Positions 9,551-24,082 of a stretch of DNA of 24,082 bases are shown here, one piece after another. A program made the position numbers and the translations under genes. Position 1 is the stretch's first letter, and the number at the start of each line of letters is the position of its first letter. Source of the DNA: a virus; IMG/VR virus record IMGVR_UViG_3300030105_000210, positions 1 through 24,082 of that record; one strand, written 5' to 3'. The notes under the pieces are model-generated. The model saw only the letters and a program-made list of their open reading frames with translations, searched no databases and was not told where the DNA came from.

Positions 9551-11015
9551 ATACGCAGAACCTTACTACCATAATTTAGTAGGTAGGTCGCAAGCATTAT
9601 CTTATGAGGATTATATTCCTTATAAGGGTCCTCGCGTTGCTGGTTTTTCTCCAGAACAATTAGGCGCACAGGAAGGATATAAAGCAATAGCACAAAGAGG
9701 AATGCCTCTATTAGATACTGCGGGCAATGTTGCTAGTTATGCTTCACAAGCTGGACCTATGATGACAGGATCAGGTTATCAAGCTGGACCAATACAAAGT
9801 CAATATGGTGGTTCTAATATAAGAAGTAGATTTAGAGGCGCACCTGTAAGAAGTACTTATGGTGGTTCACCTATTCAAAATCAATATCGTGCTGGACCAA
9901 TACAAAGTCAATACGCAGCTGCTCCTATTAATTCAGGAGTACAAGGGTTTGGACCAAAAGATTATATGAGAGCATCAAGAGGATTTGATGATAGATCAGC
10001 ACAAAAATATATGAATCCTTATCTTTCTAATGTTTTAGATAGACAACAAAATAGAGCAACAGATAGATTTAATGAACAACGTGCATCAAGAAATCAACAA
10101 GCAATTAAGTCTGGAGCATTTGGTGGTAGCAGACAAGCAATATCAGACTTTACTGCACAGCGCGATATGAATGAACAGCTGCAAGATATAGAAGCTAAAG
10201 CATTACAATCAGGATATTCAGATGCACAATCACAATTTGAAAGAGATAGATCAGCAAGATTTAAAGGTCTTACTGGTGCAGATACTGGACAATTAGCATT
10301 AGCTAGACAAAGATCAAGCGAACAAATAGCAACAGAAGATTCTAAAAGACAAGCTGCTGCACAAAATTTACAAGCACAGATAGCACAGCAAAAAGCATAT
10401 GAAGCTGCTGGTGGTCAATCATTACAAGCACAGATAGCACAGATGAAAGGATTATCTGAAGCAGATTCAAGACGTTTACAAGCACAGATAGCGCAAGGTA
10501 AATTTAGACAAGCTGGTGGACAAATGGATTTAGAAGCACAAATGGCTACAGATAAATCATATCAAACTGCTAATCAACAATATATAAATGCAATGATTGC
10601 ACAAGATAAAGCTAGGCAAGCACAAGGTAGTCAAGACTTAGAATCGCAATTAGCTAATCAAAAAGCATATGAAGCTGCTATGGGTAGGGGTTTAAAAGGT
10701 TCACAAGTATTAGCTGGTCTAACTAAAGGAGAACAAGACTTAGATATGCAAAGATTAAAAGCATTATCTGATGTAGGTTCACAAAGACAAGCAATGATGC
10801 AAAGAGCATACGATACTCAGTATGAAGATTTCTTAGGACAAAGAGAATATCCATATGAACAGCTAGAAAGATTTAGTTCAATACTACAAGGTATGCCAAC
10901 ACGACCTAGTTATTCTGAAAGAACATATCGACCATCACCTAATCCTATGGGGCAACTTATGCAAACAGGGCTAGGTGCTTATGGTGCGTATAGAGGAATG
11001 GGAGGCGGTGGTTAA
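9477..11015 (+). CDS. Helical internal virion protein with exact 18-residue repeats
   Basis: 512 residues. The N-terminal part (LPEYAEPYYHNLVGRSQAL ... RVAGFSPEQLGAQ, residues 23-65) and 'YMNPYLSNVLDRQQNRATDR ... GAFGGSRQAI' (178-222) are hallmarks of a virion protein family frequent in marine phages. Residues 102-153 hold short Gly/Tyr units (GPIQSQYGG type). Residues 280-405 are seven 18-residue units (consensus LQAQIAQxKxYxAAGGQx), Ala/Gln-rich and strongly helical. It ends Gly-rich. No membrane segment. Inferred role: elongated internal/ejection or core protein. The function is not established. It overlaps the next start by one base (TAATG), with GGAGG at 11001-11005. Confidence 0.76.
   Translation: MGKKSGGSSQPQQVESKTYQSRLPEYAEPYYHNLVGRSQALSYEDYIPYKGPRVAGFSPEQLGAQEGYKAIAQRGMPLLDTAGNVASYASQAGPMMTGSGYQAGPIQSQYGGSNIRSRFRGAPVRSTYGGSPIQNQYRAGPIQSQYAAAPINSGVQGFGPKDYMRASRGFDDRSAQKYMNPYLSNVLDRQQNRATDRFNEQRASRNQQAIKSGAFGGSRQAISDFTAQRDMNEQLQDIEAKALQSGYSDAQSQFERDRSARFKGLTGADTGQLALARQRSSEQIATEDSKRQAAAQNLQAQIAQQKAYEAAGGQSLQAQIAQMKGLSEADSRRLQAQIAQGKFRQAGGQMDLEAQMATDKSYQTANQQYINAMIAQDKARQAQGSQDLESQLANQKAYEAAMGRGLKGSQVLAGLTKGEQDLDMQRLKALSDVGSQRQAMMQRAYDTQYEDFLGQREYPYEQLERFSSILQGMPTRPSYSERTYRPSPNPMGQLMQTGLGAYGAYRGMGGGG
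10314..10691 (+). repeat. Seven 54-bp (18-residue) helical repeats
   Basis: Units begin at residues 280, 298, 316, 334, 352, 370 and 388, with no insertions or deletions. The first unit is degenerate (only QIA at positions 4-6 is kept); the others start LQAQIAQ, LQAQIAQ, LQAQIAQ, LEAQMAT, INAMIAQ and LESQLAN. Eighteen residues equal five alpha-helical turns. Confidence 0.85.
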
Positions 11016-12682
11016 TGATAAACAATGATATAAATAGTTTAATTTCTATGGCTGAACAACAGTCTGATCAGCGTTTAGCACAAGAATTAAATCCAGAAAC
11101 AGAAACTGGATTCCTTGGACCGGCTTTTATATCAGCGTCTGAACTTGCTTATAGGCAAAAGATAAGAGCAGAAGCACAAGCACAACCTAACAACAATCCT
11201 CCAATAGTTCAGCAGTTGGCACAGGCAGCAAACCCCCAAATGCAAGTCTCGATGCAAAACGAAATGCCTATGCCAGCTGCACCTATGCCACCGCAACAGA
11301 TGCCGCAACAGATGCCGCAACAACAAATGCCACCACAAGGATTTGCAATGGGTGGTCTTATTAAAATGGCTAATGGCGGTATGACTCCTTATGAATATGA
11401 TGAAGAAGAACTAAGAGATCGTACAGGAGAAAAAGCTAGAGGTTTCTTTGGTCCTCTATTGTCAGATATAGCATATGGTGCTGGTGATGCAGGTGCTTTA
11501 AGTAGATATGCTGGTGGCGAAGACCCTGATGAATTTTTATATGGAAGAGGTAGATTTGATAGTGCATTAGAAAGAGCAGGATTACCACCAGATGCTACAC
11601 CAGATATGGTATCAGCATATAGAAGTGGTACACCAATAAACGCTTTTGTATCAGCAATACCAGCAGGAAATCCATTGCTTGTAGATCAACAAGACAGAAT
11701 TACATCAACAGGTTCATCACAAGCAAGAGGACCAAACAATAGAAATATGAATGTTGGTGGTGGTAATGGGTTAGATACTACAATAGCAACTACACCAACA
11801 ACTACTGATGTTAATAAGATACTCACTAAAACTAACACAACTAATGCTCCAACTGCTAATACTCTTAAAACAGTTACACAAGATACAACAGATTTATTAG
11901 ACCCTAATTCTCTTCTAAACCAAGCAAAAGCAAACAGTAGTTCTGTTCCAATATTTAAAGAACAACCTAAAGTTATACCAAAAGCAGCAGATACAGATGC
12001 AAAGATAGGAGCGTTAAGTGATTACGAACAATTAATTGAAGATCAAATTAAATTAATGACTGATCCAAAAGGTAAGATGCAAGACAAATGGTTACGCATT
12101 GCAGCTGGTGCATTTAATGCAGCACAAAAAGGTTCGCCCACTTTACTTGGTGGACTAGCAGATTTAGGTGGTGGTGTAACAGAACAACTATTAGAATTTA
12201 ATGCTGATGAACAAAAGCAAGCACAAGAATTATTTACTTTATATACAGCTAGAGAAGAACTTAAACGTACATCTTTAACAACTCAAAGAGATATAAAGAA
12301 AGACGAAAAAACTAGATTAGCAAAAGCTATTACTGATTATCATTCTGATAAAGCAAGATATTATAATGTAGATATAACACAAGATTTATCTAAAGCAGAA
12401 GCAGATGCTATGCTTTCTACAACATATGCAGATCAAGGAGTTGAACTAGCAAAAGAAGATTATGGCAGAGCAATAACAAAAATTAGAGCAGCACAAGAAG
12501 AAATTATAGAAAATATAAAAGAAAATTCAGATACTGGTATAGTTACAAACCAAGAGTATCTTAGTAAATTAGATGAATATTTATCTACTAATCCTGATTT
12601 AAGAATATATTTTGACAATTATAAAAATCGTCAGTCACCAATCGAAGATTGGTTAAGCGTAAAATTATTAGAGGATGACTGA
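11015..12682 (+). CDS. Virion protein with Gln/Met/Pro linker, GGLIKMANGG motif and helical C-terminus
   Basis: 555 residues. After a helical start (SMAEQQSDQRLAQELNPE; LAYRQKIRAEAQAQ), residues 80-108 are a Met/Pro/Gln repeat (PQQMPQQMPQQQMPPQ). GGLIKMANGG follows at 113-122, almost the same as in the gene at 5065. The central part is Thr/Asn-rich and probably flexible. Residues about 330-520 are predicted long helices: SDYEQLIEDQIKLM, then RIAAGAFNAAQKGSPTLLGG, then ITKIRAAQEEIIENIKEN. No catalytic motif, signal peptide or clear membrane helix. I recognise the architecture from marine phage structural modules, but no function is known to me. Likely an internal or ejection-complex component, judged by its neighbours. 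It overlaps the giant gene by eight bases. Confidence 0.74.
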   Translation: MINNDINSLISMAEQQSDQRLAQELNPETETGFLGPAFISASELAYRQKIRAEAQAQPNNNPPIVQQLAQAANPQMQVSMQNEMPMPAAPMPPQQMPQQMPQQQMPPQGFAMGGLIKMANGGMTPYEYDEEELRDRTGEKARGFFGPLLSDIAYGAGDAGALSRYAGGEDPDEFLYGRGRFDSALERAGLPPDATPDMVSAYRSGTPINAFVSAIPAGNPLLVDQQDRITSTGSSQARGPNNRNMNVGGGNGLDTTIATTPTTTDVNKILTKTNTTNAPTANTLKTVTQDTTDLLDPNSLLNQAKANSSSVPIFKEQPKVIPKAADTDAKIGALSDYEQLIEDQIKLMTDPKGKMQDKWLRIAAGAFNAAQKGSPTLLGGLADLGGGVTEQLLEFNADEQKQAQELFTLYTAREELKRTSLTTQRDIKKDEKTRLAKAITDYHSDKARYYNVDITQDLSKAEADAMLSTTYADQGVELAKEDYGRAITKIRAAQEEIIENIKENSDTGIVTNQEYLSKLDEYLSTNPDLRIYFDNYKNRQSPIEDWLSVKLLEDD

Positions 12683-15600
12683 TAAACCAAGAAATACACC
12701 TAGTACCTTTGATGTATTCGGTACTAATACAGGTGAAGCAACTAGCGCATTTGATTTATTTGATACTCGAACATTATCTGATCCAGAAAATACAGAAAAC
12801 GCAGAAAAACTTTTCGGCACAGATGATATACCTGAACTACCTATATTTGGTTTAGGCAAAACTGATTTTACTCCAGAAGAAAACGATTGGGTTGATGGTG
12901 TAATATCAGCACCAAGAGGTATGTTACGTGGTTTAGCTAGAACTATACCCATGATGGGTGAAGGTGTATGGGCTTTACTTGACCTTGCCACTAACCTTAC
13001 AGGCAATGAAGATTATTTAAATGATAAAGAAAGTGATTTTATAGATCGTATGGATGAACTACGTGATGCTATAGGTTATGAAGATAGTGTTGCTGGTAGA
13101 ACTGGGGAAGCATTAGGTAGTGTATTAGGTTTTGTAGGTGCATCTATAGCAACTGGTGGTGCAGGAGCAGCAGCTAGATTAGCTGCTGGTACTAGAGCAT
13201 TACAAGCAGGAAATATTGCAGCTGGTGGTGCTAAAACATTAGGAGCAGCAACACAAATTGCTTCGCCCGGAATGGCAATGGGAGTAGCTGAAGCTAGTTC
13301 TAGGATGAGAGAGTATGAAGAAAGAACTGGTGAAGAAATACCAATAGCTGATAGAAACTTAGCTTATGCTTTAGGCGTGCCATTAGGAGCAACAGAAGCA
13401 TTGCCTATAGTAAGACCATTATCTATGCTTTTTTCTAAGATTAGAAAAACTGATCTTCCAAAAAGAACATTAGATACTTACATGGATTATGCAAAGTCTG
13501 CTGCTATAACAGGTACTGCTGAAGGAGTACAAGAAGCATTAGCTGGTATAGGTCAAGATGCTATAGCTAAAGGTATCTACGATGAGGATGCAGTTATAGG
13601 TGAATCAATAGCATCAGAGTTTGGTTATGGTGGTGGTGCTGGTGCTATATTTGATATTGGTGTAAACCTATTAACTAAAGGTAGACCTAGAGGTAGACCC
13701 CCCGCAGGTACTCCAGAAGAAGGCGCACCTATTCCAGAAGAAGGTACACCCTCTCCAATTATTACCGCAGAAGAAGAACAAGAAATCATAGATCAATCTA
13801 TACCAAGGGATGTAGTAGAACAAGTGTTTGGTGATGAAGAAATAGTATTGCCTGATGTACCAGTAGTTCCAGTAGCTAAACAAGAAATCAAACCTAATGA
13901 TGAAATCATAAATGCTACTGTTGATAGTCCACAAGCAGAGATAGAAGCAGCAGCACAAATTTTAAAAGATGAAACACCGCCAGTAATATTACAAGAAGAT
14001 ATAGAAACTGAAGCGTTTAAACAACAAAGAACGAAAGTAAATCCTAAGTTAGAATCTGCTATCAATAGAGAAATAGAATTAGAAAATGAAATAGAACAAG
14101 CAGAAGTACAAGAAGATTTAAATAAAGCTGATACTTTAAAAAATGAACTTGTATCTATACAACAACAACAAGAAGAGTTAATAAAGGAAGAAAAAGTACC
14201 AGTAAAAAGAGGCAGATTAGTAGAATCTTTTAATAGACCTGATGATAACGAAGTATTTACAGGTAGATTTCCAGACAAACAAAGCATAGATACATATAAC
14301 AATAAGAATTCTAAAAAAATTAAAACTGATTTAGGTATAACAACTTTAGCCCATAAACAATTTAAAAAGAAATACGATAAATATATAACTGATACAGTTA
14401 AAGACTCTTATAAAAATGATAATAAAGATTTTAAATTAAAAAGTTATTATGATTTAGTTTCAGAAGAACAAGGTTCAATACAACCAGAACAAATAATACA
14501 AGCTTTAGATTCTAAAAATATAAACACAACTGACAATACGTTTAAACGATATCTATACGAGAATACTAAAAAATCAAATTTAAAAGATACAAATGGTTTA
14601 GAACGCAAAGAAATATTTAGACAAATTTCTTTATTGCCTACTATGAAACAAAGAAATAGTGGTATAGATCAAGCGTTTAATGAAGGTAGAGAAAACACAA
14701 AAGCTTTTAGTAAACAAGAAGCTATAACGCAAAGGACTGAAGAGTTAATAAAAGATAATAACAAAACACAACTTTATAATTTAGGTATAGCTAATGGAAT
14801 ATCAGAAGATTTTATATCACCAAATACTAAAGCTTCTTTAGCAAGGGGTATAGCTAGACAAGAAATAAATAATCAAACAAGTGCAGAAGAAAACTATGAA
14901 CAGTTAGCTAATAAAGTAATACCTAATGTTTTAGTAAGTAAAAGAAAAACAAGCAAGAAAGATCAAGCACGTAACTTACAAAAATATGTAGCTACATACC
15001 CTGATGGCAAAAAATATACAACACTATTGCCTGTTGATATAGGTTTAGATAGTGCTAAAGACCAGACAGCAAGAAATACTTTTGGTCAAAGGATTGAAGC
15101 ATTAGAAGAAGAAAATAAAAGAACTAAGACTGCACCTCAAGCTTCACCAAGGGATTATGAATTAGCTGTTACACGTTCTTTATATAGTAGGCAGAATCCT
15201 TTAGGAGAACTTAGAAACATAGCCGGACCACAAGTTAAACAAAGTCAGACTCCAGCTTTAGAAACAAATCAAGTAGAACAAGTCCAACAAGATGCACCTA
15301 ATTTAGATTTACCAAATATAAAAGGTATTAATTATCAAGGAAACTTATATCAGTTTAAAGATAATATAAATGCTAGTGATACTGTAATGAATTTAAAGCG
15401 CATAGTTAAAAGAACTATGCCAAATGCAAATGTTGTAGCTGTTGATAATTTATTTAGCTTAGAAGGCAATGCAGTAGCTGGTGTAACCATAGGAGATATG
15501 ATTGCTATTAACTTAGAAACTAATCCTGAAAGTAGTAGACCTAGATTCGCATCACCTACAGATACTATATATCACGAAGCAGTACATTACTTTAAGAACA

Positions 15601-18600
15601 ATGAATACTTTCCTATAGAAGTTATTGAGTTGTTAGAAAAAAACAAACAGAAAATTATTAATATTGCAGAAGGAAGATTAAGGCAAGGAGAAAATAAAGA
15701 AGCAACAGTAGATACTTTTGAAGAAGCTATAGCTATAGCTTCTGGTTATTACAATGAACAGAAACTACAAGGCAGAATTCCTTTTGAATTTAGTCCACCA
15801 ATTAGAAGATTCTTTGAACCTATATTCAAATATTTTAATCAAGTAGCTAAATATTTTTCAGGTAAAAAATATAGAAAGCTTGAAGATGTATTCGATGCAA
15901 TAAGAACAGGTGATTTATATCAAGACGCAGTAGACAATCCTAGAATATTAAGTCCACCGCAACAAAAATATTCAGATGAAGTATTCAGAGATACAGGGTA
16001 TATAGGACCATACAAGGGCGCACCTTTAGCTAATGGTATGAATGCACAGTATGACAATCAAAGAAACATACAACCTTTTTACAGTGATACTCCTAGCTTT
16101 GGAGGATTGGAATTAAAATTAAACGATAATAGTTTTAACATTAGTCTTTTAAAAGAATCAATTAAAGAAACAAAAACTAAATCAACAAAAGGAAAAAATT
16201 GGTTAGTAAAAGATAAACAAGGAAGATATAAACTTGCTGGTTCTTCTATAAGTTTTTCTCCTCTTTACGTGGAAGAAACAAATTTAGAAGAACACTTAAC
16301 CAGTGAAGCAAACGCTGATAGAAATATAACTATAGAAGAAGTAAAAGAATACGTTGAAGCTAACGAAGGAATATTTTCTATTCAATTATTGGGTGATCAG
16401 CAACCATTAAGAATAATTCCTTATAGTCAAAATGAAAAACAAGCTATTAAATTTTTTAAAAACCAAGCAGAAAATAACGCACAAGCATTAGATGATACAA
16501 ATAAAGCCATACAATCATTGTTCATTAACAAACCTGAAGAGTATAAAACTTTAAAAGAATATTATTATACTGGACCAGATAGCCAATCACAGGCTGCTTT
16601 CTATGATTTAATAAGGAATCTTGATGAAATACAAAAAGCATACACAAAATTAAATTTACCTAATGCAAATGAAACTATAAATAAAAACTTTGATTTGTTA
16701 AGAGTTGCTTTAAATGTAGATGTGAAATCACCTGATTATATTTTTTCAACTATAAAAGGTAATCAAATAGAACAAGTTATTAGTGAGTTAACTTTAGATG
16801 GTAATATTTTTAATGACAGAAAAGCTTTAATAAAAGCTGACCCTGATGGACAGTTAGAAAAATTCTTAGTAGGTTTAAGTAATAGAAATATAGATACTGA
16901 TCCTTTATTAGAAATTGTAGACGAGATACAAGATGCTATTTCTAGTTATTCTTATAAAAGTTTTGATTCAGATACAGGTCCATTGGATGTAAATAATGCA
17001 TTAACAGTAGAACTATCTCGTTTTGAATCAAATACAGGTGAATTGTTTGATCAAAATTTTGAAAAAACTTTTGGAGAGTTAATTAAAGCTAGAGCAATAC
17101 ATAAAAAACAACACGCATACAATATGCAAGTTTTATATGCTGAACCTTTTAATCCTAGTTCTTTTGGATTGCCTCCTTCTGGAGATAATAGATTTGGTGA
17201 TTACGCAAACTTTAATATAGATACTATAAGTGGACAATTTAATCGTTCAGATAGATTAATCTTAGAAGCTAAACAAAGAGCAAATCCTAATACCCAACAA
17301 TGGGAGTTAGAACAATTTGAAGGTCAACCAATACAAAAAATATCTGAAACAGATCAAACCCAAATATTAACTGAAGGTTTTATTAATCAAAAAGGTGAAC
17401 GTACTGTTGATCTTTATGATACTAAAAAAGTATATACAGAAAATAAACAAACGATTGCATTTATTTTTGATCCAGCACAACCAAATAAAGAATTTTATAT
17501 TTCTGAACATTTCAAAGATATTAAAAATATGTTTGCTCACATAAGAACAGCAGATGTATACACAGTTGATGAGAACGGAGAGCCTATAAAAGTTTTACTA
17601 ATAGAAGAAATACAATCCGATATGTTTTCTGATATTAAAAAAGCTAAAGAAAAATTTATAAGAAATTTAAATGCAGGTGACCCAAGAAAAATACAAGGTA
17701 TAGATGAGTTATCAGAAGCAGATACATACTTAGCATTAAAAGGTTATGCAACAACTCGCAACATGGGCAAGATTCCTTTGATTGGATTTCCAAAACCAAA
17801 CAATAATAGATGGCAAGATTATGTAATGGAACAGATTGCAAAATTAGCTAACAATAATGCTTACGATGGAGTTGCTATAACAACCACAGCAATACAAGCA
17901 GAAAGAAATCAATCATCTTTGCAAAACAACTTTGACTTTTTAAGTTTTTATGCATCAGTAAATCCAAAAGATTTAAATTACAACAATATAGGAACACAAC
18001 AACAAAAATTAAATGGAACCATTACACATCAACCATCAAATACACAAGTTACAGAATCAACTTTGGTAGAACAAGGATATCTTAACGATACAGATAATGG
18101 ACCTACTCCTGTGTTAATGGGAGCATCACAATATTTTGCTGACCTTTTTTCAAACAATCCTAACTCTTATGAATTCCAAGAATATGTAACGCATACAAGA
18201 TTAATAGGAATGTTAGGAGGGTTTATAAGTAGAGACATGACTATGCCTTTGTCTGGATCAGATAAAATATTTGAACACAGAGGAACAACACAAAGTAATC
18301 ACATGACATCAGGAAGTCAAGACATAGAAAGAGATGGTGATTTAAGTACAGTTTTGCCAAAAGATATAGCTGATTTAATTGATGATCAAATACTAAGAGG
18401 GGTTCAACCTCAATATAAAAAAGTAGATATTAATAATATTACAACTGATGAACGTAATTTAGAAAACAATACTATCAATACAAGTAGATTAAACATTGCT
18501 AAAGAAATGAGTAATGCTGTAGGTGCTGGGTATATTAACCTTAATAAAATTAGTGCCAATCAAATACAATCATTCTTTGCTAAATCAGGATGGGAAATAT

Positions 18601-21407
18601 ACGACACTACATATCCACAAAAATTACAGAAAGCTATAAAAAAATTGTATGGAATAGAACCAACAGTATTAGGTAAAGGTGCAGTAGAAATAGCAAAAGA
18701 ACTTTATCCTAATGAAGATATAGGTGATCTACAAAACAAAGATTACTATTCAGAAGAAATGTATAGTGTTCCTTTTGATGAGTTAACAGAACAAGAACAG
18801 TTTGGAATAGACGAAATAATTTTTTCAAGACAAGCTGTTATACAAGAAAGAAAAGGTGTACCTCTGTTATTAGAATCAGCTTTTAAATCAGGAGCAAGAT
18901 TACAAACTAAAGGAGAGCCAACTAAAAAACATTTAAGTAGATTTAATTTACCTGTATATAGGTTTGAAACTGATAATCAAGTACAAGTTACTCCTACACA
19001 AAAATATTCAAGCACTCCAGCAGATGCACAAAGAGCAAACCTATGGAGAAGAACAATAGATTTCTTAGGTAATATTGGTTCAACTAAATTCTTCAGTGGA
19101 TTAGGTGCTATACCACAGCTTAAACAATTCATGGAACTAAGGTATAAAGCATTAGGTAAAATAGGTGCAGCAGAACAAGCTGCTTTAGATTTATATAATG
19201 AAACAGGTCCATATTTAAACCCACTTAAAACTGACAAACCTAAAGAAGAGTTTAAACAAAACAGAGAGCAGTTCACGGCATACATGACAGGTGGAATAGA
19301 TATTGATGCTGCAATAATACAAGACGAAGGACTAAGAAAGGTAGCCATCAAATCTAAAAAAGCTATTGATAACGTAGGAAAGTTATTAGTTCAAAAAGGT
19401 TTATTACCTAGAGCAAAATATGAAGAAAATAAAGGAGCATATCTACCTACTTTATATTTAAAACATTTACTTAAGTATCCTAATAGACAACCATTATCTT
19501 TCTTAAAGAAAAAGAAAGAAGTAGACGATGAAACTAAATTAATACTAGGTGATGTAGCAGAATTGTCACCAGAGTATAGGGTTCTTAATGGTCTCACTAG
19601 ACCTTTAAGAGATGTAGTTATATTAGATTTCTTTAATGAAGTTTCACAAAACCAAAACTGGGCATTACGTGATGGCGATATGTTAGTTGATTTTAAAATG
19701 GAAGATGGTTCGTCTAAAAAAGTTAGTGCGTTATGGGTAATAGATGAAGCAACAAGACTAGAAGAACAAGCAGATTATTTTGAAAATGGAGAGCCAGATC
19801 AGGCTCAAGCCATGAGAAATAAAGCTAAAGAATACAGGGCATTAGCTACTCCTGTATTAGAAAGCATTGGATATGGAGAAGATAATCCAACTGAAGGTAA
19901 CTTTATAAGGATGCCTAAGACAAAAAAATACGGCATGTTAAAAGGTGTAGCTGTACGTAAAGAAATATATGACGACATTATTGGTACATTTACAATGGGT
20001 AATACTGATAATGCTTACAACAAAGCTATAGCTACTATGGCAAAAGGAACTAGCATATGGAAACTTTTAAAAGTTCCATTGAATCCACCATCTGTAGTAC
20101 GTAACGTAGGCTCTAATATGATACTTATGAATTTAGTAGCCGGTATACCTATACATAAAGTAATACCTCGTATGCATCAAGCTATTAAAGAAATACAAAA
20201 CAATGGCAAGTATTGGAAGATTGCACAAGACTTTGGAATAAAAAATACAGGGTTTAGTGAACAAGAAATGTATAGGATTAGTGAGTCATATTTAGATTTA
20301 TTACAGGAAGAACATCCTCTTGGTGATGTTACGCGTTTCTTTTCTCCTAAAATAATAATGAATAAGATATTTAAAAAAGCAGGAGACATATATCAATTCA
20401 CAGAATCAGTAGGTAAGACTGCTGTAATCATTGATGCTATGGAAAGACAAGGCATGTCAGACATAGATGCTTTTATGTTAGCACAGAAAGCTTTGTTCGA
20501 TTATTCAGATGTACCTGAAGCTGGTAAGCAATTTAGGAAAGCACCTATAGGTATGCCATTCTTTACATTCTATTACAAAGCTTTACCAGCATTAATAGAA
20601 ACAGCAGTTAAACACCCTATGAGGTATGCACCATACGTAGCATTGTCTGCTGGTCTAACACAACTAGCTTCATACGCTTTTGGATTTGAAGATGATGAGG
20701 AAGAAAAGTTACAGAAAAGTTTACAGCCTTGGTTAGAAAGAAGAACAGGTGTATATGTATTGCCTTATAAAGATTCAGATGGAAGATTTCAATTCTTAGA
20801 TATAGGTTATTTCTTTCCTTGGTCAATGTATACAGACTCAATTAAAGCTGTAGCCAATGGAGAATTTATGGAACTACAAAGAACAACAGGATTATTTTCT
20901 GGTCCATTTGTAGATATTCTTTTAGCTATGAAAACTAATAAAGACCCGTTTACACAAAGAGTTATATGGGATAAACGTGATCCAGTACAAGATAGAATAC
21001 AAAATATGTGGTGGTATATGTATAGTTTGGGTATGCCATCATGGTTAACACCTACTGGTGCTATAAGTAAAACAACTAAAGCAATATCTGGAACACCAAG
21101 ACCTACAGGAGAGCCGGCAGATACAATACCTCAAGCGTTGTTACGTTTTGTAGGAGTAAATGTATACGGAATAAATACTAAAGAAAGCAGAACAAGAAAT
21201 ATAACACGTATGAAACAAGACATACAAAATATAAAACAAAGATTCTCTTATAAAATGAGAGAAAAAAGTTTAACTAAAGAACAAAAAGAAAGAGAAAGAG
21301 TAAGATACATGCAATTACTTAAAGAAAAAGGGGATTTATTACGACAATATCAAATAGATACAGCTATACCAAGAAATGTTTTAGAAAGAGAAAGCAAACT
21401 ACAATGA
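12675..21407 (+). CDS. Giant polyvalent/ejection-type virion protein with zincin (HEAVH) and LPD38-like regions
   Basis: 2910 residues. Regions in order: a Gly/Ala-rich hydrophobic tract (about 146-215) and a second (about 270-330) that could enter membranes; Pro/Glu linker (335-420); coiled coil (about 455-500). A zincin-like module follows with H967-E-A-V-H971, candidate third ligand E1016 or E1017 (FEEAIAIASG), and EDVFDAIRTGDLY (1070-1082), which follows such HExxH modules in other phage polyproteins. Next are an EEIQSD module (1644-1649, with WQDYVMEQIAKLANN from 1713), a helical region (about 2120-2280, KFFSGLGAIPQLKQF), and an LPD38-like region (about 2460-2860: NPPSVVRNVGSN, FDYSDVP, FFTFYYKALPALIE), ending in a basic helix. 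Inferred role: ejected with DNA to help cross the envelope or act on the host. No lytic transglycosylase or RNA polymerase motif seen. Confidence 0.8.
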   Translation: MTDKPRNTPSTFDVFGTNTGEATSAFDLFDTRTLSDPENTENAEKLFGTDDIPELPIFGLGKTDFTPEENDWVDGVISAPRGMLRGLARTIPMMGEGVWALLDLATNLTGNEDYLNDKESDFIDRMDELRDAIGYEDSVAGRTGEALGSVLGFVGASIATGGAGAAARLAAGTRALQAGNIAAGGAKTLGAATQIASPGMAMGVAEASSRMREYEERTGEEIPIADRNLAYALGVPLGATEALPIVRPLSMLFSKIRKTDLPKRTLDTYMDYAKSAAITGTAEGVQEALAGIGQDAIAKGIYDEDAVIGESIASEFGYGGGAGAIFDIGVNLLTKGRPRGRPPAGTPEEGAPIPEEGTPSPIITAEEEQEIIDQSIPRDVVEQVFGDEEIVLPDVPVVPVAKQEIKPNDEIINATVDSPQAEIEAAAQILKDETPPVILQEDIETEAFKQQRTKVNPKLESAINREIELENEIEQAEVQEDLNKADTLKNELVSIQQQQEELIKEEKVPVKRGRLVESFNRPDDNEVFTGRFPDKQSIDTYNNKNSKKIKTDLGITTLAHKQFKKKYDKYITDTVKDSYKNDNKDFKLKSYYDLVSEEQGSIQPEQIIQALDSKNINTTDNTFKRYLYENTKKSNLKDTNGLERKEIFRQISLLPTMKQRNSGIDQAFNEGRENTKAFSKQEAITQRTEELIKDNNKTQLYNLGIANGISEDFISPNTKASLARGIARQEINNQTSAEENYEQLANKVIPNVLVSKRKTSKKDQARNLQKYVATYPDGKKYTTLLPVDIGLDSAKDQTARNTFGQRIEALEEENKRTKTAPQASPRDYELAVTRSLYSRQNPLGELRNIAGPQVKQSQTPALETNQVEQVQQDAPNLDLPNIKGINYQGNLYQFKDNINASDTVMNLKRIVKRTMPNANVVAVDNLFSLEGNAVAGVTIGDMIAINLETNPESSRPRFASPTDTIYHEAVHYFKNNEYFPIEVIELLEKNKQKIINIAEGRLRQGENKEATVDTFEEAIAIASGYYNEQKLQGRIPFEFSPPIRRFFEPIFKYFNQVAKYFSGKKYRKLEDVFDAIRTGDLYQDAVDNPRILSPPQQKYSDEVFRDTGYIGPYKGAPLANGMNAQYDNQRNIQPFYSDTPSFGGLELKLNDNSFNISLLKESIKETKTKSTKGKNWLVKDKQGRYKLAGSSISFSPLYVEETNLEEHLTSEANADRNITIEEVKEYVEANEGIFSIQLLGDQQPLRIIPYSQNEKQAIKFFKNQAENNAQALDDTNKAIQSLFINKPEEYKTLKEYYYTGPDSQSQAAFYDLIRNLDEIQKAYTKLNLPNANETINKNFDLLRVALNVDVKSPDYIFSTIKGNQIEQVISELTLDGNIFNDRKALIKADPDGQLEKFLVGLSNRNIDTDPLLEIVDEIQDAISSYSYKSFDSDTGPLDVNNALTVELSRFESNTGELFDQNFEKTFGELIKARAIHKKQHAYNMQVLYAEPFNPSSFGLPPSGDNRFGDYANFNIDTISGQFNRSDRLILEAKQRANPNTQQWELEQFEGQPIQKISETDQTQILTEGFINQKGERTVDLYDTKKVYTENKQTIAFIFDPAQPNKEFYISEHFKDIKNMFAHIRTADVYTVDENGEPIKVLLIEEIQSDMFSDIKKAKEKFIRNLNAGDPRKIQGIDELSEADTYLALKGYATTRNMGKIPLIGFPKPNNNRWQDYVMEQIAKLANNNAYDGVAITTTAIQAERNQSSLQNNFDFLSFYASVNPKDLNYNNIGTQQQKLNGTITHQPSNTQVTESTLVEQGYLNDTDNGPTPVLMGASQYFADLFSNNPNSYEFQEYVTHTRLIGMLGGFISRDMTMPLSGSDKIFEHRGTTQSNHMTSGSQDIERDGDLSTVLPKDIADLIDDQILRGVQPQYKKVDINNITTDERNLENNTINTSRLNIAKEMSNAVGAGYINLNKISANQIQSFFAKSGWEIYDTTYPQKLQKAIKKLYGIEPTVLGKGAVEIAKELYPNEDIGDLQNKDYYSEEMYSVPFDELTEQEQFGIDEIIFSRQAVIQERKGVPLLLESAFKSGARLQTKGEPTKKHLSRFNLPVYRFETDNQVQVTPTQKYSSTPADAQRANLWRRTIDFLGNIGSTKFFSGLGAIPQLKQFMELRYKALGKIGAAEQAALDLYNETGPYLNPLKTDKPKEEFKQNREQFTAYMTGGIDIDAAIIQDEGLRKVAIKSKKAIDNVGKLLVQKGLLPRAKYEENKGAYLPTLYLKHLLKYPNRQPLSFLKKKKEVDDETKLILGDVAELSPEYRVLNGLTRPLRDVVILDFFNEVSQNQNWALRDGDMLVDFKMEDGSSKKVSALWVIDEATRLEEQADYFENGEPDQAQAMRNKAKEYRALATPVLESIGYGEDNPTEGNFIRMPKTKKYGMLKGVAVRKEIYDDIIGTFTMGNTDNAYNKAIATMAKGTSIWKLLKVPLNPPSVVRNVGSNMILMNLVAGIPIHKVIPRMHQAIKEIQNNGKYWKIAQDFGIKNTGFSEQEMYRISESYLDLLQEEHPLGDVTRFFSPKIIMNKIFKKAGDIYQFTESVGKTAVIIDAMERQGMSDIDAFMLAQKALFDYSDVPEAGKQFRKAPIGMPFFTFYYKALPALIETAVKHPMRYAPYVALSAGLTQLASYAFGFEDDEEEKLQKSLQPWLERRTGVYVLPYKDSDGRFQFLDIGYFFPWSMYTDSIKAVANGEFMELQRTTGLFSGPFVDILLAMKTNKDPFTQRVIWDKRDPVQDRIQNMWWYMYSLGMPSWLTPTGAISKTTKAISGTPRPTGEPADTIPQALLRFVGVNVYGINTKESRTRNITRMKQDIQNIKQRFSYKMREKSLTKEQKERERVRYMQLLKEKGDLLRQYQIDTAIPRNVLERESKLQ
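15573..15587 (+). other. HEAVH zinc-metallopeptidase motif
   Basis: Codons 967-971 of the giant gene read His-Glu-Ala-Val-His, preceded by hydrophobic/polar residues (TDTIY) and followed by YF, as in zincins. A Glu pair 45 residues downstream (E1016/E1017) could supply the third zinc ligand, as in gluzincins. Activity is inferred. Confidence 0.65.
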
Positions 21408-21841
21408 ACATAGATAAATTAATACAAGAACTTATATTAGATGAAGGTTATAAGTATGAAACATACGAAGATCATTTAGGTTTTCTCACATTAGGTGTAG
21501 GACATTTAGTATTAGACACAGACCCAGAGATTAATAAACCAGTAGGTACACCAGTATCAGAAGAGAGAGTATTAGAATGTTTAAACAATGATATAGAAAC
21601 TGTGTGTGATGAGTTAAATAGAAACATGCCTTGGTGGAAAGAATTAGGTGATGAAAAAATGCGTGTCTTAGCTAACATGTGTTTTAACTTAGGTATAACT
21701 AGGTTGTTAAAGTTTAGAAAATTTCTTGCAGCTTTAGAATCTGGAGATTTTGAAACAGCAGGAGAAGAAATGATGGACAGTAAGTGGGCTACTCAAGTAG
21801 GAGCAAGAGCCACAAGATTACAAAGAAGAATACTGTTGTAA
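21404..21841 (+). CDS. Endolysin, T4-type lysozyme (GH24 muramidase)
   Basis: 145 residues, starting in an ATGA overlap with the giant gene. The catalytic set of T4 lysozyme is conserved with exact spacing: E14 (LDEG), D23 (YEDHLG) and T29 (LTLGVGH), against E11, D20 and T26 in T4. The family cleaves the MurNAc-GlcNAc bond of peptidoglycan. The C-terminal helical lobe is present (RVLANMCFNLGITRLLKFRK; ARATRLQRRILL). It is slightly shorter than T4 lysozyme (164). No signal peptide, so release should need a holin. The following small membrane genes fit a lysis cassette. It could in principle be virion-associated, but its size and position favour an endolysin. Confidence 0.92.
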   Translation: MNIDKLIQELILDEGYKYETYEDHLGFLTLGVGHLVLDTDPEINKPVGTPVSEERVLECLNNDIETVCDELNRNMPWWKELGDEKMRVLANMCFNLGITRLLKFRKFLAALESGDFETAGEEMMDSKWATQVGARATRLQRRILL

Positions 21842-21939
21842 TGGAAGCCTTTGATCTAATTGCTGAAGTAGGATTGCCTATAGCAAGCGGATTGATTATA
21901 AAGAAGATGACCAGAGGAAAGACTAATGAAAAAATATGA
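21841..21939 (+). CDS. Possible 32-residue mini-protein (lysis region)
   Basis: A short frame starting in a TAATG overlap with the lysozyme stop and ending at TGA 21937-21939, 14 bases inside the next gene. The N-terminal half (LIAEVGLPIASGLII, residues 6-20) is hydrophobic and followed by KKMTRGK, like the start of small phage holin-type membrane proteins, but the span is short. It may be a truncated remnant of a longer membrane protein or a non-functional frame. Context and start-stop overlap are the main support. Confidence 0.42.
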   Translation: MEAFDLIAEVGLPIASGLIIKKMTRGKTNEKI

Positions 21940-22135
21940 ATCAGATTTAGCATCAATAGATAATGTGATATTTGAACCAGTAAAGGAAGAGATATCTGAT
22001 GAAGAATATTTTGATAATTTAGACAGGACTATATCTTATTCTTTGTGGGCACTTTTAATTTTATCCGCAACTGTGTTTATAAGTATTTTATTTTGGGTAG
22101 ACACAATAGAAAGCATTATAATTAACTACTTGTAA
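21926..22135 (+). CDS. Small single-TM membrane protein, holin/lysis candidate
   Basis: 69 residues; AGAGGA at 21913-21918 lies eight bases before the ATG. The acidic N-terminal half (residues 1-36, with EEISDEEYFDNLD) is followed by one clear transmembrane helix (about residues 38-60, YSLWALLILSATVFISILFW) and a short polar/hydrophobic end. It is directly behind the lysozyme, so a holin or spanin-like lysis role is reasonable. One TM with a large acidic N-terminal domain is not one of the classic two- or three-TM holins. No lipobox. Function unproven. Confidence 0.68.
   Translation: MKKYESDLASIDNVIFEPVKEEISDEEYFDNLDRTISYSLWALLILSATVFISILFWVDTIESIIINYL
22093..22122 (+). promoter_or_regulatory. 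Candidate sigma70-like promoter (weak)
   Basis: A perfect TATAAT at 22117-22122 lies 18 bases after TTGGGT (22093-22098; three of six match TTGACA). Transcription would begin near 22129, a few bases before ATG 22138, giving an almost leaderless transcript for a gene with no visible Shine-Dalgarno. In AT-rich DNA such a match can arise by chance. Confidence 0.25.
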
Positions 22136-22335: not shown

Positions 22336-22342
22336 TTAAGTA

Positions 22343-23695
22343 ATGAAACAAAAATTAACTTTTACAGCAGTTCTACTTTTTATAGGGTTATTAAGTATGC
22401 CCACCGTGGCAGACCAAACAGGAGACTGTACGGCGGGCACTGAACATTGTGAAGCAAATAGTTTAACAACTGCAAACGCTACCACAACAACAAATACCAA
22501 TACAAACACCAATACTAATGCTAACACAAATGTAAATACAACTACGGCTACTGCTACAAATACTAACACCAACACAAACGCTAATACAAATGTAAATACA
22601 AACACCAGTACTGCTACAAATACTAATACAAACAACAATACAAATGCTAATACAAATGTAAACACAAACACTAGTACGGCTACTAATACTAATAATAATA
22701 CGAATATTAATACTAACACCAGTACCAATACTAATAACAATGTTAATACGAACGCGAATACTAATACAAATACCAGTACAAATACAAACAACAACACCAG
22801 TACCAATGTAAATACAAATAATAATGTTTCTTCAGGTGGTACTAACAACACTAATACAAATACCAACACCAATAATAATACTAATACTTCTAGTAATACC
22901 AACAACAATACAAATACAAATGTTAATACATCAACATCTACAGTTGATTCAAATGTAAATCAAAATGTAACTAACAACTCGACTTCTAATAATACGAATA
23001 CAAATAATAGCACCAGCGATAATACTAATACGAATAACAACACCAGTAACAACACTAATACGAATAACAACAACAACACATCCACCTCTGATTCAAAGGT
23101 AGAAACGGATAACACCAACACGAATAACAACAACACAGTTACCGACAATACAAATCGTAATATTAACGAAAACAATTCAACGCAAACCATAAAGCAAGAG
23201 ATAACAAGTAAGGCTCCTCCTGCTTCTGCTATAGCCCCTAGTATCATGTCTTATTCACAAGACTTATGTACTGTTGGCAGGTCGGGTGCTTTCCAAGGAC
23301 AAGTATTTGGGTTCTCTGGTGGTCGTACTGTCACAGACCAAAACTGTGAAAGGTTAAAGCTAAGTAAATATATCTTTGATATGGGGATGAAAGTTGCAGC
23401 AGTCTCTATTCTTTGCCAAGACGAAAGAGTATTTCAAGCGATGGAAATGGCAGGTACACCCTGTCCCTACATGGGTAAAATAGGTAAAGAGGCTTCAAAT
23501 GGATGGAAAGCTAATCCTTCTAAAAGACCAGACGCTAAAGAATACAAATCTAATTGGATTAAACAGTGTAAAACAGGGCTGAACCCTGATGATACAAATT
23601 ACAACAAGGATATCGTAAGTGGAGTAAGAAAGGTTTTAACGAAAAGCACTAAGACTGCAAAACAATGTAAAAAAGAGTGGAGAAATGCGAGCTAA
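22343..23695 (+). CDS. Exported Asn/Thr-repeat protein with conserved Cys-containing C-terminal domain
   Basis: 450 residues. A Sec signal peptide (MKQKLTFTAVLLFIGLLSMP, cleavage probably after TVA at residue 23) is followed by a short segment with Cys29 and Cys36, then an Asn/Thr tract (residues 45 to about 280) mostly reading NTNTN. The C-terminal domain (about 290-450) has SYSQDLCTVGRSGAFQG, NCERLKLSKYIFDMGMKVAA, LCQDERVFQAM and GTPCPY. I recognise this domain in many marine phage genomes, with no function known to me; Cys pairs suggest disulphides outside the cytoplasm. Possible roles: periplasmic or surface protein made late in infection, or a virion appendage. No lipobox. The ATG has no good Shine-Dalgarno. 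The stop overlaps the next start by 11 bases. Confidence 0.83.
   Translation: MKQKLTFTAVLLFIGLLSMPTVADQTGDCTAGTEHCEANSLTTANATTTTNTNTNTNTNANTNVNTTTATATNTNTNTNANTNVNTNTSTATNTNTNNNTNANTNVNTNTSTATNTNNNTNINTNTSTNTNNNVNTNANTNTNTSTNTNNNTSTNVNTNNNVSSGGTNNTNTNTNTNNNTNTSSNTNNNTNTNVNTSTSTVDSNVNQNVTNNSTSNNTNTNNSTSDNTNTNNNTSNNTNTNNNNNTSTSDSKVETDNTNTNNNNTVTDNTNRNINENNSTQTIKQEITSKAPPASAIAPSIMSYSQDLCTVGRSGAFQGQVFGFSGGRTVTDQNCERLKLSKYIFDMGMKVAAVSILCQDERVFQAMEMAGTPCPYMGKIGKEASNGWKANPSKRPDAKEYKSNWIKQCKTGLNPDDTNYNKDIVSGVRKVLTKSTKTAKQCKKEWRNAS
22475..23179 (+). repeat. Asn/Thr low-complexity coding repeat
   Basis: About 235 residues composed almost only of Asn and Thr with Ser, Val, Ala and Asp interruptions. 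A higher-order unit ANTNVNTxTxTAT begins at residues 60, 80 and 102 (22520, 22580, 22646), so spacing is 20 and 22 residues. AAT/AAC and the four Thr codons are mixed, which argues against pure polymerase slippage. Confidence 0.85.
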
Positions 23696-24082
23696 AAAAC
23701 CAGACCCAGAATATAAAGCAGAATGGTTTGTTGTATTGGGTATGGTAATTTTAGGGATTTCAGTCCTATTCGTATCTCTTAATGCCAAAGCCGATTACAT
23801 TTATGAAGCCAACCAATCCTTATACGATTTACAAACTAACTCAGTAGGGTCAACAGGATTAGGTTCAAATGACGATGCAGTATCTGGAGCATTTAATATA
23901 GGATTTACTTTTGATTTTTATGGGCAATCTTTTACCCAAGCAAGAATGGCAACTAATGGTTGTCTTCACTTTAAAACAAGTGGGGCTTACTGTAATGACT
24001 TTACCCCCGACCCCTTAACAGGGCAGCATACTTATACTTTATACCCCTTTTGGACTGACCTAATAAAAGATAATGGTTCAGC
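23685..24082 (+). CDS. Exported beta-rich protein, NIDO-like N-terminal region (3' partial)
   Basis: At least 132 residues; the frame is open at the right edge. A basic N-terminus, a hydrophobic segment (residues 14-33, FVVLGMVILGISVLFVSL) and AKA at 34-36 form a Sec signal peptide with likely cleavage before Asp37. The mature part (FNIGFTFDFYGQSFTQARMA, then TNGCLHF, YCNDFTPDPL and YPFWTDL) matches a family I know from marine phages and resembles the nidogen-type extracellular domain in its 'F.FDFYGQ.....TNG' core. Cys93 and Cys103 may pair. It is probably co-expressed with the exported protein before it (11-base overlap). A surface or virion adhesion role is inferred, not shown. Confidence 0.78.
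   Translation, partial: MRAKKPDPEYKAEWFVVLGMVILGISVLFVSLNAKADYIYEANQSLYDLQTNSVGSTGLGSNDDAVSGAFNIGFTFDFYGQSFTQARMATNGCLHFKTSGAYCNDFTPDPLTGQHTYTLYPFWTDLIKDNGS

Follow-up and report, generated by a model that had tools for sequence, protein, structure and literature searches.

The 24,082-base virus record IMGVR_UViG_3300030105_000210, taken whole as the window of this analysis, carries a gene, here called A, for a predicted exported protein of 450 amino acids. A lysozyme gene lies upstream of it and the start of a second gene, B, overlaps its end; a third gene, C, is found downstream of B in relatives. The features of the locus are as follows.

21404..21841, + strand: lysozyme (endolysin), upstream of A (Phage_lysozyme PF00959, E 3e-12; phrog_7 endolysin, E 1.4e-15)
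21926..22135, + strand: protein of 69 aa encoded between lysozyme and A, with a single transmembrane segment predicted
22343..23695, + strand: gene A, putative exported protein, 450 aa (open ORF; homologues)
22343..22411, + strand: signal-peptide-like segment of A, residues 1-23, without lipobox (sequence and hydropathy heuristic)
22427..22450, + strand: early cysteine pair of A, Cys29 and Cys36 (C-x6-C; sequence)
22466..23191, + strand: Asn/Thr/Ser tract of A, residues 42-283, in a two-residue register (composition, parity, autocorrelation)
23192..23692, + strand: C-terminal Cys domain of A, phrog_20531 (profile match, alignment)
23685..24082, + strand: beginning of gene B, which runs past the window end; putative exported partner with a beta-sandwich-like N-terminal domain (homologues, HMM, AlphaFold2 of a relative)

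A sequence-only reading of this locus had described A as a signal segment, two early cysteines, a tract of about 235 Asn/Thr residues and a Cys-bearing C-terminal domain. All of these are present in the 450-residue ORF, and the tract is indeed long and dominated by Asn and Thr, although its measured length is 242 residues (103 N, 80 T and 21 S). The hydrophobic N-terminus ends in PTVA before DQ, which by hydropathy and motif resembles a type I cleavage site. Of 73 window-type homologues, 72 have a recognisable early cysteine pair, and the four core cysteines of the C-terminal domain are invariant in 29 aligned homologues. Opposite the tract, a 190-aa frame is open on the - strand (22336-22908); it bears no sign of being a gene and is probably a by-product of the repetitive codons.

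Export of A, as proposed in the same reading, was borne out across the family. A signal-like segment lies in frame in 372 of 376 uncut homologues, so that the absence of a signal from all homologues, which would have spoken against export, was not what was found; of the four exceptions, three have no in-frame signal and one is a short ORF that was dropped. The 376 derive from 393 domain-bearing loci, less 13 that are cut at the 5' end and 4 that have no Cys motif, and the signal, lipobox and membrane calls were made with hydropathy and pattern heuristics rather than a dedicated program. Among 239 homologues scored, the 238 with a signal-like segment were used for counting cysteines, and the mature protein has an even number in all 238: window-type proteins have 8 in 72 cases and 6 in one, and those of other groups have 4. 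A pattern search for a lipobox gave no match in these 238 A proteins or in 91 B proteins, and by hydropathy a second membrane anchor is nearly absent from the same sets (2 A, 1 B). Signal-like starts, even cysteine numbers and the lack of a lipobox together point to A as an oxidised, exported, non-lipoprotein product. No known outer-membrane secretion signal was seen in A or B, nor a lipobox, so that surface exposure is no more than a possibility and both proteins could remain periplasmic until lysis.

A search with the C-terminal domain, which the earlier reading had recommended along with a comparison of tract lengths, placed it in phrog_20531 (E 4.7e-15; PHROGs v4), a family of unknown function that is also matched by the isolated-phage relatives CRP-810, HTVC023P, Baldr and Mosig (E 3.8e-10 to 2.8e-18). 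There was no Pfam match to A at E<=1, curlin repeats included, and no relevant PDB match to the domain by sequence-profile searches; two NCBIfam matches to full-length A were far under their cut-offs and both lay inside the tract. An AlphaFold2 model of the domain reached a pLDDT of 51 only. The domain is no rarity, as it was found in at least 598 IMG/VR stretches and in 11 of 50,697 phage records, the latter including the Pelagibacter phages HTVC023P, HTVC033P, HTVC115P, HTVC202P, Baldr and Mosig, as well as an uncultured Autographiviridae phage and two Roseobacter phages. It thus spans podovirus-type pelagiphages, a Kyanoviridae myovirus (Mosig) and an Autographiviridae phage, a distribution among unrelated phage types that suggests a module passed between phages and directed at the host, not a basic component of the virion. 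In a profile search of 11 phage records, three known carriers matched A and the other eight did not (seven chosen for a related tail gene, and HTVC008M). Cys-domain proteins of Pseudomonas-type phages, which we took to be a possible link to A, were represented in the profile search by NV1, which gave no match. A scan of genome contigs returned three relatives of A among 49 pattern matches, in MAGs of three unrelated groups labelled Alphaproteobacteria, Trichodesmium and Actinomycetota (L255, L256 and L257). A bacterial, non-phage origin of A was considered for these and rejected, since the neighbouring genes look phage-like and the three are probably phage contigs misbinned into MAGs.

The segment between the early cysteines and the domain differs greatly in length among these proteins. 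Window-type tracts have 144-250 residues, the corresponding linkers of HTVC023P types mostly 40-50 and those of CRP-810 types about 40; the isolates with the domain have short linkers, the short-linker relatives spanning 16-50 residues overall, and the longest tracts, of up to 498 residues, are those of freshwater and GC-rich phages. What stays constant is thus the domain, and the tract resembles a polar linker that has grown; the short-linker relatives indicate that the module can work without a long tract. In L286, L255 and their relatives, whose tracts extend to 498 residues, a NINSGTMTNINQNT-like unit recurs, as does Gly, and these tracts may contain a longer repeat.

The first 11 nt of gene B overlap A, and its product has a signal-like start. 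An HMM built on the B tail matched downstream of A in 51 of 52 window-type loci that were long enough; in the exception, L079, the tail is encoded in a different frame. Among HTVC023P-type loci the HMM matched in 49 of 50, L089 alone being without a match. All 91 complete B copies have a signal-like start. In the non-redundant locus set the signal of B was called by a loose criterion without a control, and the B-tail counts are the firmer. The tail is conserved, and the N-terminal part varies between groups. No Pfam match to B exceeded the cut-off; one relative has a weak match to CBM_4_9 (E 0.0089), and two others carry the annotation 'putative carbohydrate binding domain'. Full-length B of L003, which is closely related to the window, was modelled with AlphaFold2; about residues 44-205, folded as a beta-sandwich, were the only part predicted with confidence. 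This model had no PDB match with Foldseek at E<=0.001 and none at Z>=5 with VIA-align 2, the best Z for that region being 4.6; by eye, the head looked 'nidogen-like'. Gene C, downstream of B in relatives, encodes a protein in which a membrane segment and a coiled coil are followed by NPL at the very end. It is present in 98 of 101 non-redundant tract-bearing loci and in all 6 short-linker pelagiphage loci with enough sequence, with just 4 of 34 loci in the CRP-810-like groups having it. ORFs ending in NPL number 155 on the gene strand versus 5 on the other. Identical proteins or tracts were removed for the 98/101 count of C and for the set of 156 tracts described below; some contigs occur twice in the window-type B-tail count, the NPL-strand count and the counts of neighbouring lysis genes.

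The most regular property of A is the arrangement of its tract. When the residues of the window's tract are divided by parity, Asn fills 82 of 121 in one class and 21 of 121 in the second, a bias of 61; the highest value in 10,000 shuffles was 31, so the register is not due to chance. Autocorrelation is 0.41-0.52 at even lags and 0.13-0.19 at odd lags, up to lag 40, and within that range shows no longer or turn period such as a classical solenoid would have. Counts of NT/TN dipeptides, a weak test, put 23 of 72 tracts above all shuffles. In the window clade, tract length is even in 72 of 72 homologues, which have 17 distinct lengths, and the parity of Asn relative to the first Cys of the domain is identical in all 72 (these counts exclude L012, a short ORF, and L057, which has no early Cys pair). 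Charged residues are sorted completely in 55 distinct tracts of this clade, at 0 of 4317 positions on the Asn/Ser face versus 409 of 4317 on the Thr face.

The same register was found in a wider set of 156 unique tracts of at least 80 aa. Asn and Ser favour one parity and Thr the other, above all 200 shuffles in 156 of 156, and a single register runs through all three thirds in 155. Charges again fall mainly on the Thr face, 1271 of 13295 positions versus 70 of 13285 on the Asn/Ser face. The phase relative to the domain Cys is opposite in 11 of the 156, which counts against a rigid link to the domain. Where the tract can be anchored by the early cysteines, 130 of 137 have even length and 7 odd, and at least five of these seven (L406, L414, L409, L324 and L335) belong to the opposite-phase set. 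With mostly Asn or Ser at alternate residues, and Thr and nearly all charges between them, the tract does not resemble a random linker. The plain reading of strict register and face segregation is a two-faced extended beta structure, and the tract of the window probably forms one, as a fibre, a stalk or an intermolecular sheet. The earlier proposal of a beta-solenoid or amyloid-like stalk thus gains support with respect to a beta-like tract carrying the Cys domain; this could take the form of a solenoid, for which the window's tract shows no turn period, of a cross-beta fibre or of a sheet shared between chains.

Gene structure, export-like signals, even cysteine numbers, the register and the gene trio are seen in the sequences; beta fold, complex formation, final location and function are inferred from them. 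Together, these findings suggest the following scheme. A would be made late, alongside the lysis genes, judging from its position, and exported by Sec to fold in the oxidising periplasm, with which its even number of cysteines is consistent. Its tract, 80-500 residues long among homologues, would set an uncharged ladder of Asn and Ser opposite a face of Thr and charged residues, and so form a beta stalk for the Cys-bearing C-terminal domain, which may be the conserved business end or a cap. B would be an exported partner of A with a swappable, lectin-like beta-sandwich head on a conserved tail, and C an inner-membrane anchor, its coiled coil ending in NPL, that works with both. We tentatively favour, at somewhat less than an even chance, the view that A, B and C form an envelope or surface fibre-adhesin module of the infected cell, most likely altering the host surface or periplasm, as in superinfection exclusion or adhesion. 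The more elaborate version is on the doubtful side. Here, three parts would make up an envelope-spanning apparatus, with C as anchor, B as adhesin with interchangeable heads and A as a new class of polar beta fibre in a two-residue register, its tract reaching about 500 residues. Such an apparatus would be separate from curli, from spanins and from the fibres of virions, and would rebuild the infected-cell surface. No description of A or of the trio was found in searches of the open-access literature. The domain family was already known as phrog_20531, without a function; the register of the tract and the partners B and C are not described there.

The position of A raises the alternative that the trio serves lysis, as a periplasmic apparatus that sets the time of envelope breakage or assists in it, whether as a spanin substitute or as a regulator resembling T4 RI. 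It had been thought that phages seldom place such a gene after the lysis genes, but in this group that expectation fails. Of the flanked window-type loci, 44 of 60 have a match to a lysozyme, an M15 peptidase or a holin close to A, as do 25 of 28 HTVC023P-type loci (two short-linker pelagiphage clusters, 12/14 and 13/14) and 37 of 37 CRP-like loci. In many loci A is a neighbour of a gene for a lysozyme, an M15 peptidase or a GTA-type holin; Mosig 203 is a GTA_holin_3TM protein. The lysis-gene seeds matched in 0 of 54 flanked loci of the remaining tract-bearing clusters, for which they are possibly too distant. For the 69-aa protein between lysozyme and A, there was no family match at E<=0.001 and no tblastn relative among the loci compared. 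The periplasmic topology predicted for all parts would also suit a lysis role, and the trio resembles Rz/Rz1 spanins in comprising neighbouring exported or envelope proteins in the lysis region, with an inner-membrane coiled coil in C. However, the gene order in L003 is A, B, C, Rz-like, Rz1-like, lysozyme, with a separate spanin pair (Rz-like phrog_739, E 8e-10; Rz1-like phrog_812, E 1.6e-13) between C and lysozyme, and unlike spanins, neither A nor B is a lipoprotein. A two-component spanin made of A and B is thus unlikely, the window itself ending within B. T4 Sp and RI, exported exclusion and lysis regulators that are small and without repeats, provide a second comparison, as A shares with them a signal-peptide-type start and a predicted site of action in the periplasm. 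RI, described in PMC8385771 as a lysis regulator that is exported and whose signal peptide is cleavable, offers a precedent for a regulator of this kind. Nonetheless, the near absence of a second membrane anchor is unfavourable to a lysis apparatus, which also leaves the swappable head of B unexplained, and we consider a lysis module rather unlikely.

A different objection concerns the tract itself, which might be a disordered polar spacer whose register arose merely by duplication of units that are multiples of a hexanucleotide. Tandem Repeats Finder assigns the tract periods of which most are multiples of 6 bp, the composition is of low complexity, and relatives manage with linkers of 16-50 residues. 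Duplications in 6-bp multiples could indeed partly uphold the register. Against this, Asp, His and Lys are each one base from Asn codons and yet are nearly absent from the Asn/Ser face, where Ser, also one step away, is common; this sorting of charge by face is more than repeat duplication alone would give. Synonymous codons are also mixed (AAT 64, AAC 39; ACA 30, ACT 21, ACC 19, ACG 10), which argues against a simple DNA microsatellite, and the pattern is equally present in GC-rich phage contigs (L255, GC 0.50; L257, GC 0.55). A disordered spacer is thus an unlikely account of the tract. With regard to codon usage, ACC and ACG make up 36% of Thr codons in the tract (22466-23191), compared with 9% in the other genes of the window, and their share is higher in the tract than in gene B of the same locus in 48 of 51 relatives; this excess may stem from selection against repetitive DNA.

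Among published ideas, the closest concerns the curli (type VIII secretion) modules of pelagiphages and a related methylophage, for which roles in superinfection defence, aggregation or lysis are proposed in PMC9599517, PMC7029224 and PMC9004378. Capture of siblings, as suggested there for the curli of pelagimyophages (PMC7029224) and of HTVC023P-type phages (PMC9599517), could be extended to the present proteins, with A and B freed at lysis as a sticky matrix that holds neighbouring cells or virions. The fibre-like nature of A and the lectin-like nature of B would fit; the predicted membrane anchoring of C would not, and such a matrix seems distinctly improbable. That A or B coats or decorates the virion, another role that might be read from the late-gene position and from a variable beta-sandwich head such as receptor-binding proteins may have, is very unlikely, as both proteins have signal-like starts, tailed virions assemble in the cytoplasm, and the module is common to unrelated phage morphotypes.

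Pelagiphage curli nevertheless share with A the character of exported, Asn-rich repeat proteins from phages of SAR11 and its neighbours. A differs in having no match to curlin repeats and a different set of partners (B and C). CsgG was found in none of 42 A-bearing records, chosen by length among 252 loci (6 complete isolates and many fragments, the window's record being outside the set), with HTVC008M positive as a control, which indicates that in those records no phage curli pore serves A. That A is a curlin-like substrate of such a system, as its Asn-rich repeats and the occurrence of these systems in some pelagiphages (PMC9599517) might suggest, is hardly tenable given the absence of CsgG and of curlin matches and the dissimilarity of A to the HTVC008M curlins. 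In HTVC008M (L253), a 'hypothetical' protein near CsgG (10638-11963) has curlin-like repeats after another exported domain, in agreement with PMC9599517, and a phage 'outer membrane porin' with a signal-like start is encoded at 28040-28897 of this pelagimyophage. 

The functional amyloid FapC has Asn-rich beta repeats and cysteines near its C-terminus; A lacks a Pfam match, and its window tract has a register of two without a fixed repeat unit.

If the fibre-adhesin reading of A, B and C is correct, many phages of SAR11-type bacteria, which are among the commonest viruses in the sea, would place a purpose-built fibre and adhesin in the host envelope before lysis. This would bear on how pelagiphages handle superinfection and on why some carry partial curli systems, and the two-residue register would be a simple way, found in nature, of designing a beta fibre that is polar. 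Sequence handles for annotating hundreds of hypothetical proteins would also come from the C-terminal domain of A and the coiled coil ending in NPL.

Two other ORFs of the window are of note. A 580-aa ORF at 274-2016, rich in ANTTG-type repeats and with Peptidase_S74 (endosialidase chaperone) as its C-terminal domain, is probably a tail fibre. A single ORF of 2910 aa at 12675-21407, just before the lysozyme, takes up more than one third of the window and, by its position, probably encodes a large virion or ejection protein.
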